This document shows positions 7,480 through 12,262 of a stretch of 64,000 bases of DNA, piece after piece. The DNA is from Alkalicoccus halolimnae (lineage in GTDB: Bacteria > Bacillota > Bacilli > Bacillales > Salisediminibacteriaceae). The translations under genes were made by a program, and so were the position numbers. Every line of letters begins with the position of its first letter. Positions within the stretch are counted from its first letter, which is position 1. Below the pieces are notes generated by a model, which ran no database searches, was not told the origin of the DNA, and saw nothing but the letters and a program-made list of their open reading frames with translations. The stretch is from NCBI RefSeq assembly GCF_008014775.2, contig NZ_CP144914.1:682001-746000 (forward strand), given 5' to 3'.

Positions 7480-7640
7480 ACCTTAAAAATAAAGTAGATA
7501 GATATGTTGAACTTAATAATTCGTTTCCTCTTCTGTAAACGACCGCTTTCGTTTCCATGGGGACGCTTTCCGGGCGGGCCGGCCTCAGCTAATCCCTTCC
7601 TCCCTTCTGTCGGGCGGGATGGATCTTCGGCTTATCCTTT
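7480..7640 (-). repeat. Module B repeat, inverted, 3' part only
   Basis: The minus strand contains the module B core from GGATCC-like sequence through GGCCGGCCCGCCCGGAAAGCGTCCCCATGGAAACGAAAGC to the distal CTACTTTATTTTTAAGG tail. It directly abuts the 3' end of the redoxin gene. Confidence 0.75.
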
Positions 7641-8325
7641 AACCCATTATGGTTTCACGTTCTTCGACCAGTTTCTTTCTCTGCCAGGCTGTATCAATTT
7701 CCGGTGTGAATTTCTCAGGGTAGCGGATGTGCCAGCGCTGCTTGCGGATGATAAAGTCATATGGATCGTAGCGCAGCGCTTCATCGAGAAGCATAAGGGC
7801 TGCTCCTTCTGCTCCGCTGTGCAGAAGCTCCATCGCTTCTTTATACCGCTGCTGGGAGATCGAGCGGAATTCAGGTGCTACCGCTTCCTGATGGGAAGGG
7901 AGCGCTTCTGGAAATTCCCCGGCGAGCAGTTTTTCGAGAAGCTGGTAATGATCCGGATTGAGAATCGAAAACCCTTCCTGGGCCCAGCGGATAATTCCTT
8001 CCTTATCGAGAAAAATCACCGCCGGTACAGTCCGGAATTGAAATCTAATAGGCAGTGTTCTCGCCGCATCAATGACACACGTAAACGTACCGTTTTCTAC
8101 AAATGGCTTAACTGCAGAAGCACCTTGAATGTCCACTGCCGCTGCAACGACATCTACTTCCTTGTTTTCCATGAACTGCTGCCACACGGGCAGCTGATCC
8201 CGGCATCGTCACCAGGAACCCCACACAAAGATGACCTGCGGCCGGTTGTGATCCTCATTAGGAATACTTCGATTTCCCCCGTAGATATCGGGAAGTGTCA
8301 CGCTGTTCATTTTTTCATTAAGCAT
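7639..8325 (-). CDS. Thioredoxin-like redoxin with in-frame TGA at the catalytic cysteine (candidate selenoprotein)
   Basis: Reading from ATG 8325 (ribosome binding site AAAGGAG, 8-nt spacing) gives 38 residues ending VIFVWGSW, then TGA (8211-8209), then RCRDQLPVWQQF and a further 182 residues in the same frame to the stop at 7639. In TlpA-like redoxins the residue after this tryptophan is the catalytic cysteine, so TGA stands exactly where Cys is expected. A hairpin with a 6-bp stem GCTGCC/GGCAGC and loop CGTGT lies 14 nt after the TGA, with the loop about 21 nt away and G in its first two bases, as bacterial SECIS elements require. The rest holds a cis-Pro (RTVPAVIFLD) and a C-terminal helical region. 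The full product would be 228 residues with Sec39. The alternative is a nonsense mutation, leaving either a 38-residue peptide or a product restarted at GTG 8187. No sel genes lie in this window. Confidence 0.7.
8178..8194 (-). promoter_or_regulatory. Candidate bacterial SECIS hairpin
   Basis: On the minus strand, GCTGCC (8194-8189), loop CGTGT, GGCAGC (8183-8178). It starts 14 nt after the TGA at 8211-8209, within the coding sequence, which is the position used by SelB-dependent SECIS elements. Confidence 0.45.
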
Positions 8326-8413
8326 AGAATGCGCTCCTTTAGCTTTTACATGATAAAGTAAACGTAAACATAGGGTTTTCATTCAGCTTACCTAAAGTAA
8401 GGGAGGGAAGGAA

Positions 8414-8962
8414 ATGCGTCAAGTGGACCATTTTTGGGAGGATGTTCATGATCGGCTTTTAAAAATGATTCAGTCAAAAGTATCAAATCGGGAAGACGCA
8501 AAAGATATTCTTCACAACGTCTACATTAAAATGCAGGAACGGATTGATCAGCTTCGCGATGAAGAAAAATTGGAGTCGTGGCTGTTTCAGCTTACCCGGA
8601 ATACGATTATTGATTATTATCGGGTCCGCCGGCTTCATGCTCCTCTGGAAGAAGAGGAGCTTTTGGAAGAAACGGACGATCCGATGGAAAATTACAATCC
8701 GGAAGTGGCCGCAGCCCTGGCCCGCTACCTTACTCAGCTCCCGCCTGAATATGAAGAGGCGCTGCGCCTGTACGATATCGAAGGATGGAAACATAAGCAG
8801 ATAGCGGAACATCTGGGGATCTCCATATCCGGTTCGAAAACAAGGGTGCAGAGAGGGAGGCAGAAATTAAAGAAGCTCCTGCTCGACTGCTGTGCCGTAA
8901 AACTTGATGCATATGGAAATGCCATTGATTACTATAAAAATCCTCCTAATATGCGACCATAA
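8414..8962 (+). CDS. sigZ: ECF-type RNA polymerase sigma factor SigZ
   Basis: The 182-residue protein has sigma-70 region 2 (residues about 10-75, with AKDILHNVYIKMQERI and WLFQLTRNTIIDYYR) and region 4 (residues about 105-155, with LPPEYEEALRLYDIEGWKHKQIAEHLGIS and SGSKTRVQRGRQKLKKLL). The C-terminal DCCAVKLDAYGNAIDY matches the SigZ subfamily. It directs RNA polymerase to an alternative promoter class; its regulon is poorly defined. No anti-sigma gene is adjacent. The two cysteines of DCC could be a redox or metal sensor, which is inference. The start at 8414 has a GGGAGGGAAGG ribosome binding site. It is divergent from the redoxin gene and upstream of a flavoprotein. Confidence 0.9.
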   Translation: MRQVDHFWEDVHDRLLKMIQSKVSNREDAKDILHNVYIKMQERIDQLRDEEKLESWLFQLTRNTIIDYYRVRRLHAPLEEEELLEETDDPMENYNPEVAAALARYLTQLPPEYEEALRLYDIEGWKHKQIAEHLGISISGSKTRVQRGRQKLKKLLLDCCAVKLDAYGNAIDYYKNPPNMRP

Positions 8963-9001
8963 ACGTCCTGCTTCGTCTACCGGAGTGAAGGGCGTTTTTT
9001 C
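8961..9001 (+). terminator. Terminator after sigZ
   Basis: Imperfect stem AAACGtCC..CTTC / GAAGGGCGTTT with a TTTTTT tract at 8995-9000. It lies between sigZ and the flavoprotein gene, so the latter may have its own promoter or rely on read-through. Confidence 0.65.
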
Positions 9002-9037
9002 CTGTCCTGAAAAAGATGATAAGAAAGGATGAGAGTA

Positions 9038-10303
9038 ATGAATACAAAGCTTCCCATCGCAATTATAGGAGCAGGACCGATTGGGCTGGCGGCCGCGGCT
9101 CATGCCGTATCCAGAGGAGAACGGGTGACTGTAATAGAAGCAGGGACGACAGTAGGAGCGAACATCCGGGAATGGGAACACGTCCGCTTATTTTCCGGGT
9201 GGGAGTATAACATGGATAAAACTGCAGAAAGGCTGCTGGAGAAAACAGACTGGGTAAAGCCGGCGGGGGACATTCATCCGACCGGAGAAGATCTTTACCG
9301 GCAGTACTTGCTGCCCCTGTCACAGACTGATGAGCTGAGGGATTCTATTATGCTGGAAACGAAGCTTATTGCAGCTGGAAGATCCGGCGTGGATAAAGTG
9401 GGCGACGATCGGGAAGAAAGACCGTTCATGCTGCATATAAAGACTAAATCGGGAAGGAAAACGATTCTGGCAAAAGCCGTCATCGATTCCACAGGCACCT
9501 GGAATCAGCCGAATCCGATCGGCAGCGGAGGTATCGAAGCACCCGGAGAAGAGGAAGCATCCTTCTTTATTCAAAAGAATATCCCTGACATCCTGGGGAG
9601 GGAAAGGCGGAGATACATTGATAAAAAAACAGCTGTCATCGGAAACGGGCATTCAGCAATTCATGCCGTGCTGGCCCTGGCGGAACTTAAAAAGGAGCAT
9701 TCCGCAACGGAAATCCACTGGTTTATCCGAGGCAGCGCTCCCCGTTACGGCGGTGGAAAAGCCGATGCCCTGCCTGAAAGAGGAGCGCTCGGCCTGGAAG
9801 TGAAAGCACTGGTGGAAAACGGGGATATCTGCCTTCATACAAATTTCCGTACCGAAGAGGTGGATTGTTCGGAAAACACCGTCTCGCTTGCAGCTGAAGA
9901 CGGCAGAGTATTTGGAGAATTTCAGAATGTGGTCGCGAATACTGGAGCCAGGCCCGACTTTTCCATTACGAGAGAGCTTCGGACATCTACGGATGCAAAA
10001 CTGGAAAGCGTACCGGCGCTCGCACCGCTGATCGATCCAAATATCCACAGCTGCGGCACGGTCCGGCCCCACGGAGAAAAAGAGCTGCGTCAGCCGGAGC
10101 GTAATTTTTATATCGTCGGAGCTAAAAGCTATGGACGGGCACCGACGTTTTTACTCGCTGTCGGATATGAGCAGGTCCGCTCGGTCATTGCTTACCTTAC
10201 CGGTGATAAGGAAGGGGCGGAAAAAACCGGGCTGCATCTTCCGGAAACGGGTGTCTGCTCCTCCAGCAGCCTGCAGATTCCTCTGCAGACGTCCTGCTGC
10301 TGA
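9038..10303 (+). CDS. FAD/NAD(P)-binding flavoprotein oxidoreductase with Cys-rich C-terminus
   Basis: A 421-residue flavoprotein with an N-terminal dinucleotide motif (IAIIGAGPIGLAAAAHA), a second nucleotide-binding motif in the middle (TAVIGNGHSAIHAVLAL) and a GARPD segment near residue 310. This two-Rossmann layout is that of the flavin-containing monooxygenase/thioredoxin-reductase-like superfamily. The C-terminus ends in ...ETGVCSSSSLQIPLQTSCC, putting three cysteines in the last 20 residues, which could bind a thiophilic metal or metalloid or carry a redox pair. Similar Cys-tailed flavoproteins occur in arsenic-related loci as far as I recall, but nothing arsenic-specific lies here. ATG 9038 is chosen over 9029 because the latter lies inside the AAGAAAGGATG ribosome binding site. 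Confidence 0.75.
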   Translation: MNTKLPIAIIGAGPIGLAAAAHAVSRGERVTVIEAGTTVGANIREWEHVRLFSGWEYNMDKTAERLLEKTDWVKPAGDIHPTGEDLYRQYLLPLSQTDELRDSIMLETKLIAAGRSGVDKVGDDREERPFMLHIKTKSGRKTILAKAVIDSTGTWNQPNPIGSGGIEAPGEEEASFFIQKNIPDILGRERRRYIDKKTAVIGNGHSAIHAVLALAELKKEHSATEIHWFIRGSAPRYGGGKADALPERGALGLEVKALVENGDICLHTNFRTEEVDCSENTVSLAAEDGRVFGEFQNVVANTGARPDFSITRELRTSTDAKLESVPALAPLIDPNIHSCGTVRPHGEKELRQPERNFYIVGAKSYGRAPTFLLAVGYEQVRSVIAYLTGDKEGAEKTGLHLPETGVCSSSSLQIPLQTSCC

Positions 10304-10589
10304 CTGACAGTGGCATATTCTGAAAGAAAGCACTTCCTATGGTATGAAAACAGAACCAGGGCATAATGCAATCCAATAAATAAAAAAGCCCCCTCTTCGT
10401 TTAAAAGGGCAGTGTGTAAACAAATATTTCTTTACAGGGTGAATTTTCCGGTCTTCTGTATTAACTATATAAATTGAACTTAATATTTATATAGATAGAA
10501 GGTATGACGAAGAAAGCGGTCTTCCCTATCGAAAGAAAGAAGGGTGTTATCTTTTTGAACGAAAGAGCGTTTTGGCCGGAATAACTGAA

Positions 10590-10800
10590 AAGGAGGACAG
10601 GCCGGTGCAGTGCTCATGGGGCGGCTCCGGGGCGAAGTTAGGTCGAGTCGAAGATCCATCCCGCCCGATCTTAGGGAGGAAGGGATTAGCTGAGGCCGGC
10701 CCTGCGCTCCCACGGAAACGAAATCAGCTGAGTCCGTCCCCTCGGGAAAGCGTCCGTCTGAAACGGAGGTCATTTACCTTATTCGTTTATTTTATAGATT
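10590..10800 (+). repeat. Module B repeat copy
   Basis: Contains GTGCTCATGGGGCGGCTCCGGGGCG, GAAGATCCATCCCGCCCG, GGGATTAGCTGAGGCCGGCC and a CGGGAAAGCGTCCGTCTG end. The end resembles variant C. Part of the 780-bp gene-free gap 10304-11080. Confidence 0.8.
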
Positions 10801-10849
10801 GTCTTCTATTATGAAATTAATTTACGTAACAGGACTTTGTCTAAAGTAT

Positions 10850-10933
10850 GGAGGCTTGTCCCATAACGATATGGGCACAGTTTCGCACGGACAAAAGCCA
10901 GTTAGCCAAATCCCAGTCTAACTGGCTTTTTTA
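10850..10933 (+). ncRNA. Candidate structured RNA ending in an intrinsic terminator
   Basis: GGCTTGTCC (10852-10860) can pair with GGACAA..GCC (10889-10899), enclosing a small hairpin CCATA-ACGA-TATGG and a GCAC-rich joining region. The 3' strand of this outer helix overlaps the 5' arm of a strong terminator (AAAAGCCAGTTAG at 10893-10905 with 10918-10930, then TTTTTT). The two structures are mutually exclusive, as in riboswitch leaders, yet no gene follows on this strand. I could not match it to a known class. Confidence 0.4.
10893..10933 (+). terminator. Intrinsic terminator
   Basis: A 13-bp perfect stem, AAAAGCCAGTTAG with CTAACTGGCTTTT, followed by T residues. Confidence 0.85.
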
Positions 10934-10962
10934 ACATCTTGCCCGGCTCCGCGCGTGCTTTC

Positions 10963-11000
10963 GAGGCTGTCTCGATATAACTTTTGAGACAGCCTCTTTT
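10963..11000 (+). terminator. Second tandem terminator
   Basis: An 11-bp perfect stem GAGGCTGTCTC (10963-10973) with GAGACAGCCTC (10986-10996) and a TTTT tract. It follows the previous terminator by 30 bp. Confidence 0.8.
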
Positions 11001-11037
11001 CACTGTACGGTCAAAGTCCGTTCAGCTGTATGGAATG

Positions 11038-11075
11038 AAAAAAAGCCTTCCGGCGCCCGGAAGCGCCGGAAGGCT
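11038..11075 (-). terminator. Terminator of hmp
   Basis: On the minus strand, a 13-bp GC-rich stem (11075-11063 with 11056-11044) followed by TTTTTT. Confidence 0.9.
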
Positions 11076-11080
11076 CATGA

Positions 11081-12262
11081 TTATTTGTTTTCGACGAGGG
11101 TCATTGTCGGGCCGAAGAATTCATAGGAAATCTGATTCGATGAAATACCGAGATCTTTCAGCATATCGTATACCGACTGCATAAACAGTTCCGGTCCGCA
11201 TAAATAGTATTCCGCCTGCTCCTGTGGCAGGAAGGATGCCAGCGCTTCGGGGGTTAAGCGCCCCTTAAAGTCACCGGCGTCGATGTTCTCCGGCTCTTCG
11301 TAACAGACGATGTGGCGGATGTGGCTGTCTTCTTTTAACACATGAATTTCTTCTGCGAGTCCATGTACATTTTCGTTACGGACGGCCTGTACAAACGTAA
11401 CCGGACGCTCCGGCTGACTTTCGCGGACGCGCTTATACATGCTGAGAAGCGGAGTGACACCGACTCCTCCGCTGATAAGAATAAGCGGTGAATGAGCTTC
11501 TTTTACGGTGAAATCTCCCGCCGGAGCACTGATGTAGATGCTGTCCTCTGCATTAACCTGATCATGAAGATAGTTGGAAACAATTCCTTCAGGATTATTT
11601 TCCCGCTTCACGCTGATGCGGTAATGATTTTTTCCTGGAGCATCGGATAAGGAATACTGGCGGATATGACGGTACTTTTCTCCCGGAATACTTGCTTCGA
11701 TGCTGATATACTGTCCGGGCTGAAACAGAGGCAGAGGACCGCCGTCTGCCGGAGAAAAATAAAAGGAATAAATTTCATCACTTTCTCTTACTTTGCTGCT
11801 TACCTTCATTTCCCGGAATCCATCCCATCCGGCCTGCTCGTACATTTCTTTTTCCACCTGGATAAAGACATCAGCTATGATTCCGTATGCGGCCCCCCAT
11901 GCTTCAATTACCGGGTCATCCGAGTTCAGTCCGAGCTCATCCTGCATGGCCTGCAGCAGATATTCACCCACGATAGGATAGTGCTCTTCTTTCACACCGA
12001 TGCTGCGGTGTTTGTGAGCGATCTGCTTTACTACCGGCAGAATTGATTCCAGATTTTCAATATTTGAGGCTGCCTGATACAAGGAATATGCAAGCGCTTT
12101 CGGCTGATCGCCTGTTTCTTGATTTACATGGTTAAATAAATTAAGCAGTTCCGGGTGGTCGTTGAAAAGCTGCCTGTAAAAACGGGTGGTAACCTTTACA
12201 CCGTGCTCTTCCAATACGGGAACCGTGGATGTGATGACAGTCATCTGCTCATTCGTTAACAT
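11081..12262 (-). CDS. hmp: Flavohaemoprotein, nitric oxide dioxygenase
   Basis: The 393-residue protein has an N-terminal globin domain (about 1-140; proximal histidine region QIAHKHRSIGV), an FAD-binding domain with RQYSLSD and an NAD-binding domain with GGVGVTPLLSMY. This is full-length Hmp, which oxidises NO to nitrate with O2 and NAD(P)H in the cytosol. ATG 12262 is chosen because AAAGGAGGGG lies just upstream. It is divergent from nsrR, the NO-sensing repressor, so control by NsrR is expected. Confidence 0.95.
   Translation of the reverse strand: MLTNEQMTVITSTVPVLEEHGVKVTTRFYRQLFNDHPELLNLFNHVNQETGDQPKALAYSLYQAASNIENLESILPVVKQIAHKHRSIGVKEEHYPIVGEYLLQAMQDELGLNSDDPVIEAWGAAYGIIADVFIQVEKEMYEQAGWDGFREMKVSSKVRESDEIYSFYFSPADGGPLPLFQPGQYISIEASIPGEKYRHIRQYSLSDAPGKNHYRISVKRENNPEGIVSNYLHDQVNAEDSIYISAPAGDFTVKEAHSPLILISGGVGVTPLLSMYKRVRESQPERPVTFVQAVRNENVHGLAEEIHVLKEDSHIRHIVCYEEPENIDAGDFKGRLTPEALASFLPQEQAEYYLCGPELFMQSVYDMLKDLGISSNQISYEFFGPTMTLVENK

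Follow-up and report, generated by a model that had tools for sequence, protein, structure and literature searches.

The window analysed here is a stretch of 64,000 nt from Alkalicoccus halolimnae (GCF_008014775.2, NZ_CP144914.1, positions 682,001-746,000 of the forward strand), and all gene positions are given in its numbering. On the minus strand, at 7639..8325, lies a predicted selenoprotein gene of 228 codons in which, judged from the frame and from homologues, the TGA at codon 39 would be read as selenocysteine. The frame opens with an ATG at 8325 and closes with a TAA at 7639, and its sole internal stop is the TGA at 8211-8209, in the context VIFVWGSW-U-RCRDQLPVWQQ; the original prediction had described it as continuous but for this one codon between VIFVWGSW and RCRDQLPVW, and re-reading of the sequence gave the same result. 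Both the frame and the homologue column mark the TGA (8209..8211, minus strand) as the predicted selenocysteine nucleophile, and codon 41, a TGC at 8203..8205, is the predicted resolving cysteine of a U-R-C motif. A Shine-Dalgarno-like AAGGAG (8334..8339) can be read 8 nt before the ATG, and a SECIS-like hairpin (8178..8194) lies just downstream of the TGA, both likewise on the minus strand; neither a consensus promoter nor a terminator was found at the gene. The encoded protein comprises a thioredoxin-fold (AhpC-TSA/redoxin) domain at about residues 4-134 (7924..8316), assigned from a profile match and the predicted structure, and a C-terminal helical, TPR-like part at about residues 151-227 (7645..7875), which contains IRKQRW and RYPEKF and is assigned from TPR matches in relatives and from the structure model. 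On the plus strand a 285-codon open frame (7504-8361) spans the whole gene, and several homologues are likewise overlain by an antisense frame; these frames are probably a by-product of codon use.

Between the TGA and the TAA there are 189 sense codons. An earlier count, which described them as looking fully maintained, had put them at 180. In 31 other match rows from 397 order-level genomes, identity to the post-TGA part is 40-45% over most of its length, so this part of the frame is not a chance ORF. The mechanical gene caller lists only a 182-codon ORF from a GTG at 8187, which is what would remain of a gene split by a nonsense mutation if anything at all were made from it. That ORF starts past the catalytic residues, however, and the TGA is common to a paralogue in the host genome and to all 53 loci from named genomes, against which a split gene is a very improbable reading. 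Because the paralogue and the 53 loci carry TGA at this position, a sequencing base error is also very unlikely, and nonsense mutation and sequencing error were both rejected as explanations of the codon.

The paralogue (G000:C1:969767-970516) has its TGA at the same column, so that with the window excluded all 54 distinct homologous loci (the 53 and the paralogue) share it. The 53 loci are mostly from Bacillota, with others from Chloroflexota, two Poribacteria, a Rubrobacter MAG, an unplaced MAG and one alphaproteobacterial MAG. The starting set comprised 62 loci, among them ten with S or H in QLP and one short frame, all eleven with TGA, and one C-terminal remnant (L038); the 54 distinct loci leave out this remnant and seven repeats of the same places. 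Two of the 53 loci (L080 and L092) are partial. The scan was seeded by two patterns, one of which stops before the TGA codon, and Cys forms were therefore findable by it. In Neobacillus terrae (L051, 4001-4900) the TGA is accompanied by a second in-frame stop, a TAA 102 codons further on, in a frame that is otherwise conserved; this is either a broken copy or a base error.

Within the family, a match at E 1e-20 was obtained in eight of 35 genomes, and in seven of these a TGA lies inside it. The eighth (G031) holds the remnant, which consists of the C-terminal helical part alone (G031:C1:2292265-2292651), in a genome that keeps selA and selB. At the level of the order, 30 of the 397 genomes have a match at E 1e-20, giving 32 rows (two from the host) with one TGA inside each match, the codon being counted within the match and not read row by row at the column itself. 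Remoter relatives, at E 1e-7 to 1e-4 within the genus, carry CxxC and are ordinary Cys proteins.

A single-sequence protein search found nothing but the window's own fragment. Searched with a profile, public proteins yielded 320 matches, and the figures that follow are from the 120 of these that were listed. The motif is absent from 109 of the 120, and those inspected start just after the TGA position or later, so the catalytic part of these genes is missed by mechanical gene calling. The remaining 11 among the matches listed cover the column, with Trp in nine and Cys in two; the nine Trp proteins are probably the work of gene callers that read TGA as Trp. The two Cys forms, P0008 (WASWCRC) and P0011 (WASWCTC), have the same CxC spacing. 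When the trait column was masked, a quick tree put P0008 inside a Bacillota Sec clade (SH-aLRT 85 for a group of four and 98 for a group of seven), a placement that comes from a short metagenome contig and a short tree search, with two of the clade rows of the Trp kind; it suggests a Sec-to-Cys change. The residue 39 column is thus occupied by TGA, or by Cys in two proteins, in keeping with the original prediction, in which the TGA of a candidate selenoprotein replaces a nucleophilic cysteine.

A search for selA, selB, selC and selD in the host genome, a single contig of 3,694,897 bases, found all of them: selA (445.5 bits), selB (377.9 bits; cut-off 242.25), selD (406.3 bits; cut-off 125) and a tRNA-Sec with a TCA anticodon (61.1 bits) are clustered within about 6 kb. 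The selD gene (10219-11289 of locus L010, or G000:C1:1970218-1971288) has an in-frame TGA of its own, in KAG-U-GCK (L010:10279-10281), and is itself likely to encode a selenoprotein, so the genome has at least one further gene that looks Sec-encoding besides the paralogue. The mechanical gene caller starts selD late, at a TTG.

SelA was also present in 30 of the 32 homologue genomes searched, which account for 32 of the 53 loci. One of the two genomes without it, the MAG G053, has SelB and tRNA-Sec over the cut-off; in the other, Alicyclobacillus sp. ALC3 (G050), the search returned no SelA match and neither SelB nor tRNA-Sec over the cut-off. Despite this, ALC3 carries a TGA redoxin with a hairpin and a CGPEGC tail (L073, 3977-4747), which may be an orphan selenoprotein gene, mark a recent loss of decoding or have its codon read in another way; the case means that the redoxin gene can exist without decoding machinery that is found.

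At five of the 53 loci (Paenisporosarcina, Terrihalobacillus, two Planomicrobium and Gracilibacillus) the gene lies directly after selB-selA on the same strand. All ten of the selB and selA neighbours there match TIGR00475 or TIGR00474, nine over the cut-off; the Gracilibacillus selB, cut by the end of the locus, scores 172 bits against a cut-off of 242. Six loci were scanned for tRNAs, and both Planomicrobium selB-selA loci contain a tRNA-Sec. A soluble redoxin that lacks CxxC and stands behind selB-selA in four genera is plausibly a sel-dependent housekeeping or antioxidant enzyme. The phylogenetic profile is weak, since selA, present in all eight family genomes with a homologue or remnant, occurs in 28 of the 35 family genomes anyway.

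We also considered that the TGA might be read by means other than tRNA-Sec, through suppression or as Trp, with the Sec machinery serving other genes. The nine Trp rows and the ALC3 gene could be taken in this sense. The Trp rows, however, are most simply explained by callers translating TGA as Trp, and the Cys in two other proteins, the conserved hairpin and the position of the gene right behind selB-selA in five loci all speak for selenocysteine, leaving a non-Sec reading with hardly any credit.

The hairpin was identified from sequence, folding and conservation. Its arms on the minus strand are GCTGCC (8194-8189) and GGCAGC (8183-8178), closing a 6-bp stem around the loop CGTGT (8188-8184); it starts 14 nt past the TGA and the loop lies 20 nt past it. 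These positions agree with the original prediction of a 6-bp hairpin 14 nt downstream of the TGA with its loop at bSECIS distance. The isolated hairpin has a folding energy of -10.9 kcal/mol. Checked by hand, it fits the bSECIS model as set out in a figure legend, which asks for a loop of 3-9 nt, a stem of 4-16 bp, a G in the first two loop positions, a spacing of 16-37 nt and an MFE of at most -7.5 kcal/mol (PMC13188914, Fig 2 legend): the loop is 5 nt, the stem 6 bp and the spacing 20 nt, and G stands at loop position 2, with U next, as the model in that legend requires.

Taken alone, the hairpin is weak evidence, because the residues QLPVWQ favour it. When the residues were held fixed, 28% of 20,000 synonymous recodings yielded a Watson-Crick-only 6-bp bSECIS-like hairpin, and 36% did so with G-U allowed. 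The 56-nt stretch surrounding it is not unusually stable (z -0.70), and on these two grounds, the 28% and the z value, we rejected the hairpin alone as proof of selenocysteine. Such a hairpin accompanies 36 of the 2,089 TGA trinucleotides (1.7%) in any frame on both strands of the window. An Rfam scan of 8100-8340 with E up to 10 gave no match.

We then turned to constraint at the RNA level across 55 loci (window and paralogue included), which comprise 51 distinct sequences. The Leu codon of QLP[GV]WQ is CTG or TTG in all 51, whereas elsewhere in these genes CTG and TTG make up 34% of Leu codons. The first base of this codon covaries with the third base of the second Gln codon (C-G 42, T-A 5, T-G 4 and C-A 0; Fisher 5e-5, relatedness ignored). 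Over the six stem positions 283 of 306 cells are paired, a figure that none of 5,000 column shuffles reaches (mean 266.7, best 275); like the codon test, the shuffle test takes no account of kinship among the sequences. The outermost pair forms in just 28 of the 51 sequences, and the 5-bp core stem is present in the predicted 45-nt fold of 40 of them. It is this conservation across homologues, and not the hairpin by itself, that raises the predicted SECIS above chance.

Given the decoding machinery in the host and the TGA or Cys in homologues, we consider it very probable (roughly 95%) that the window gene is a genuine selenoprotein gene, as the original prediction had proposed. UGA 39 would be recoded by SelB with Sec-tRNA, guided by the hairpin just downstream, to give a 228-residue, presumably soluble protein with a thioredoxin/redoxin domain and a TPR-like helical tail.

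The AlphaFold model of this protein has a mean pLDDT of 94.0, and its thioredoxin fold matches ResA, StoA and DsbE, with the helical tail outside the matches; the tail is called TPR-like from profile matches in relatives only. Both the window copy (26.5 bits) and the paralogue (57.3 bits) score over the gathering score of 26 for PF00578 (AhpC-TSA). The redoxin domain begins at residue 3-4, after MLNEKMN, and by sequence reading the protein has no hydrophobic N-terminus and neither an export signal nor a membrane anchor of the ResA/TlpA kind. In the mechanism that we propose, the selenolate of U39, just before helix 40-54, would attack a disulfide or hydroperoxide, and C41 would resolve the intermediate as a U39-C41 selenenylsulfide, which a cellular low-molecular-weight thiol or the thioredoxin system may then re-reduce; the helical tail may serve to dock a partner. 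With some reservation we favour a cytosolic enzyme that uses U39-C41 as a thiol-disulfide or peroxide reductase; any particular substrate we would name only with low confidence.

Next to the window gene lies a divergent pair of genes (8414-10303). One product scores 184.5 bits as a SigZ sigma factor (cut-off 168.65) and has two adjacent cysteines within its last 30 residues; the other is a flavoprotein that is weakly YpdA-like (51 bits; cut-off 340) and ends in TSCC. Possibly the two form a thiol-stress unit beside the selenoprotein gene. Conservation of this pair beside homologues was not found among the clusters listed, in which the sole partner of the sigma factor is a generic ECF-like frame in L090. 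Near homologues, proteins that are OsmC-like by eye occur in four loci (the one tested had no NCBIfam match at E 1e-20), and one flavoprotein cluster is found in three genomes (L042 1076-1453, L064 2283-3368 and L071 2620-3696). The L071 flavoprotein matches TIGR03169 (Nterm_to_SelD), a type found fused to SelD, with 278.8 bits against a cut-off of 310, and is a possible functional partner. Since the OsmC-like proteins and flavoproteins recur in a few loci only, we draw no pathway from them.

The window copy is strongly diverged. At 2.3 changes per column, where the median is 0.21, its branch exceeds that of every other Bacillota row; only outside Bacillota do comparable or longer branches occur (L088, 3.95; L083, 1.99). 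In 29 other Bacillota rows 77 columns reach a conservation of at least 95%, and the window copy keeps 51 of these and has changed 26, whereas for each of the 29, omitted one at a time, the share kept of its own conserved set is 94% or more. Retained are W35, S37-W38-U39-R40-C41-R42, P101, IRKQRW and PEKF; lost are the N and G after P101 and the CGP[DE]GC tail, the C-terminal cysteine pair of most relatives. With the loss of this pair the window copy has probably changed its partner or recycling route. No match more than 45% identical to it was found in the 397 order-level genomes. The tree puts the copy among Bacillota. Two alternatives, one holding the other Bacillota together with the window copy outside (p-AU 0.455) and one in which the Alkalicoccus copies form a group that includes it (p-AU 0.167), were not rejected, so that the copy may have been duplicated inside the genus or gained from elsewhere.

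The long branch, the 26 changed columns, the missing cysteine tail and the want of any closer relative in the order are also what would be seen if the gene were an old duplicate on which selection has relaxed, still decodable in principle but with little or no function, its work being done by the intact paralogue. Set against this, the frame is still open over all the codons past the TGA, the core motifs listed above are intact, the SECIS pairing is preserved and the structure model is confident, and we regard a relaxed duplicate as improbable. The reading we prefer is that the window copy is, on the sequence evidence, a diverged relative of the Bacillota 'URC' redoxin that has kept its predicted Sec, SECIS and core motifs. 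As a more tentative proposal, which may or may not hold, Sec would be the normal state of the Bacillota URC redoxins and Cys a rare late reversion, and the window copy would be a fast-evolving second copy with changed partners in which UGA and SECIS are under selection. If this were true, the pattern in these redoxins would run opposite to that in most selenoenzymes and to the counts tabulated for the UGC family in the GOS study, and the new job of the window copy would also need selenium. The two copies in one genome permit a direct comparison.

The ResA, StoA and DsbE (CcmG) proteins are exported or membrane-anchored. Like these thiol-disulfide oxidoreductases of the ResA/TlpA type, the window protein has a thioredoxin fold, but where they have a CxxC active site its U-R-C is one residue shorter. 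The best family match, over the redoxin domain, is to NCBIfam NF041054 (WAxxUGC_long, ResA-like), a model of 354 positions in which the match starts near position 85 and whose C-terminal part also matches the paralogue. At 69.3 bits the window protein falls short of the 300-bit cut-off, as do five relatives (120.6-178 bits), and its WGSWURC has the spacing of WAxxUGC and differs from it at G36 and R40.

Selenoproteins with a comparable active site are known. 'Prx-like (UGC-containing)' selenoproteins appear in Table 2 of the GOS study, with 46 Sec and 855 Cys forms (PMC2398784), and a table in a 2026 review has a 'UGC-containing TlpA disulfide reductase family protein' (PMC13188914). As far as these tables describe them, such proteins resemble the window gene product in having Sec in the U-x-C of a thioredoxin-fold AhpC-TSA/TlpA protein (PMC13188914, PMC2398784). 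The original prediction was right that this spacing is one shorter than CxxC, and wrong in thinking it unusual for this gene, as it is family-wide and known in 'UGC' selenoproteins. Two differences are apparent from the same tables: the motif there is U-G-C where the window gene has U-R-C (PMC13188914, PMC2398784), and Cys forms outnumber Sec forms in GOS (PMC2398784), while few of the close relatives that we found have Cys. Given the 855 Cys forms tabulated, the excess of Sec applies to these close relatives and not to the wider family. Among the 54 distinct homologous loci the motif is U-R-C in 42, U-K-C in one, U-G-C in five, U-A-C in five and U-V-C in one; with the window, U-R-C is found in 43 of 55 loci, mostly from Bacillota and also in L075, L076 and L078. 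In the accessible portions of the literature searched we identified no paper naming a U-R-C branch or a tail-less copy, and none joining Alkalicoccus, or WAxxUGC, with selenoproteins. The window gene is thus related to a known kind of selenoprotein and works like it. What is new is the U-R-C branch, mainly of Bacillota, whose scored members lie below the NF041054 cut-off, and, within that branch, a lone and very divergent copy that has dispensed with the CGP[DE]GC tail and kept its predicted Sec and SECIS.
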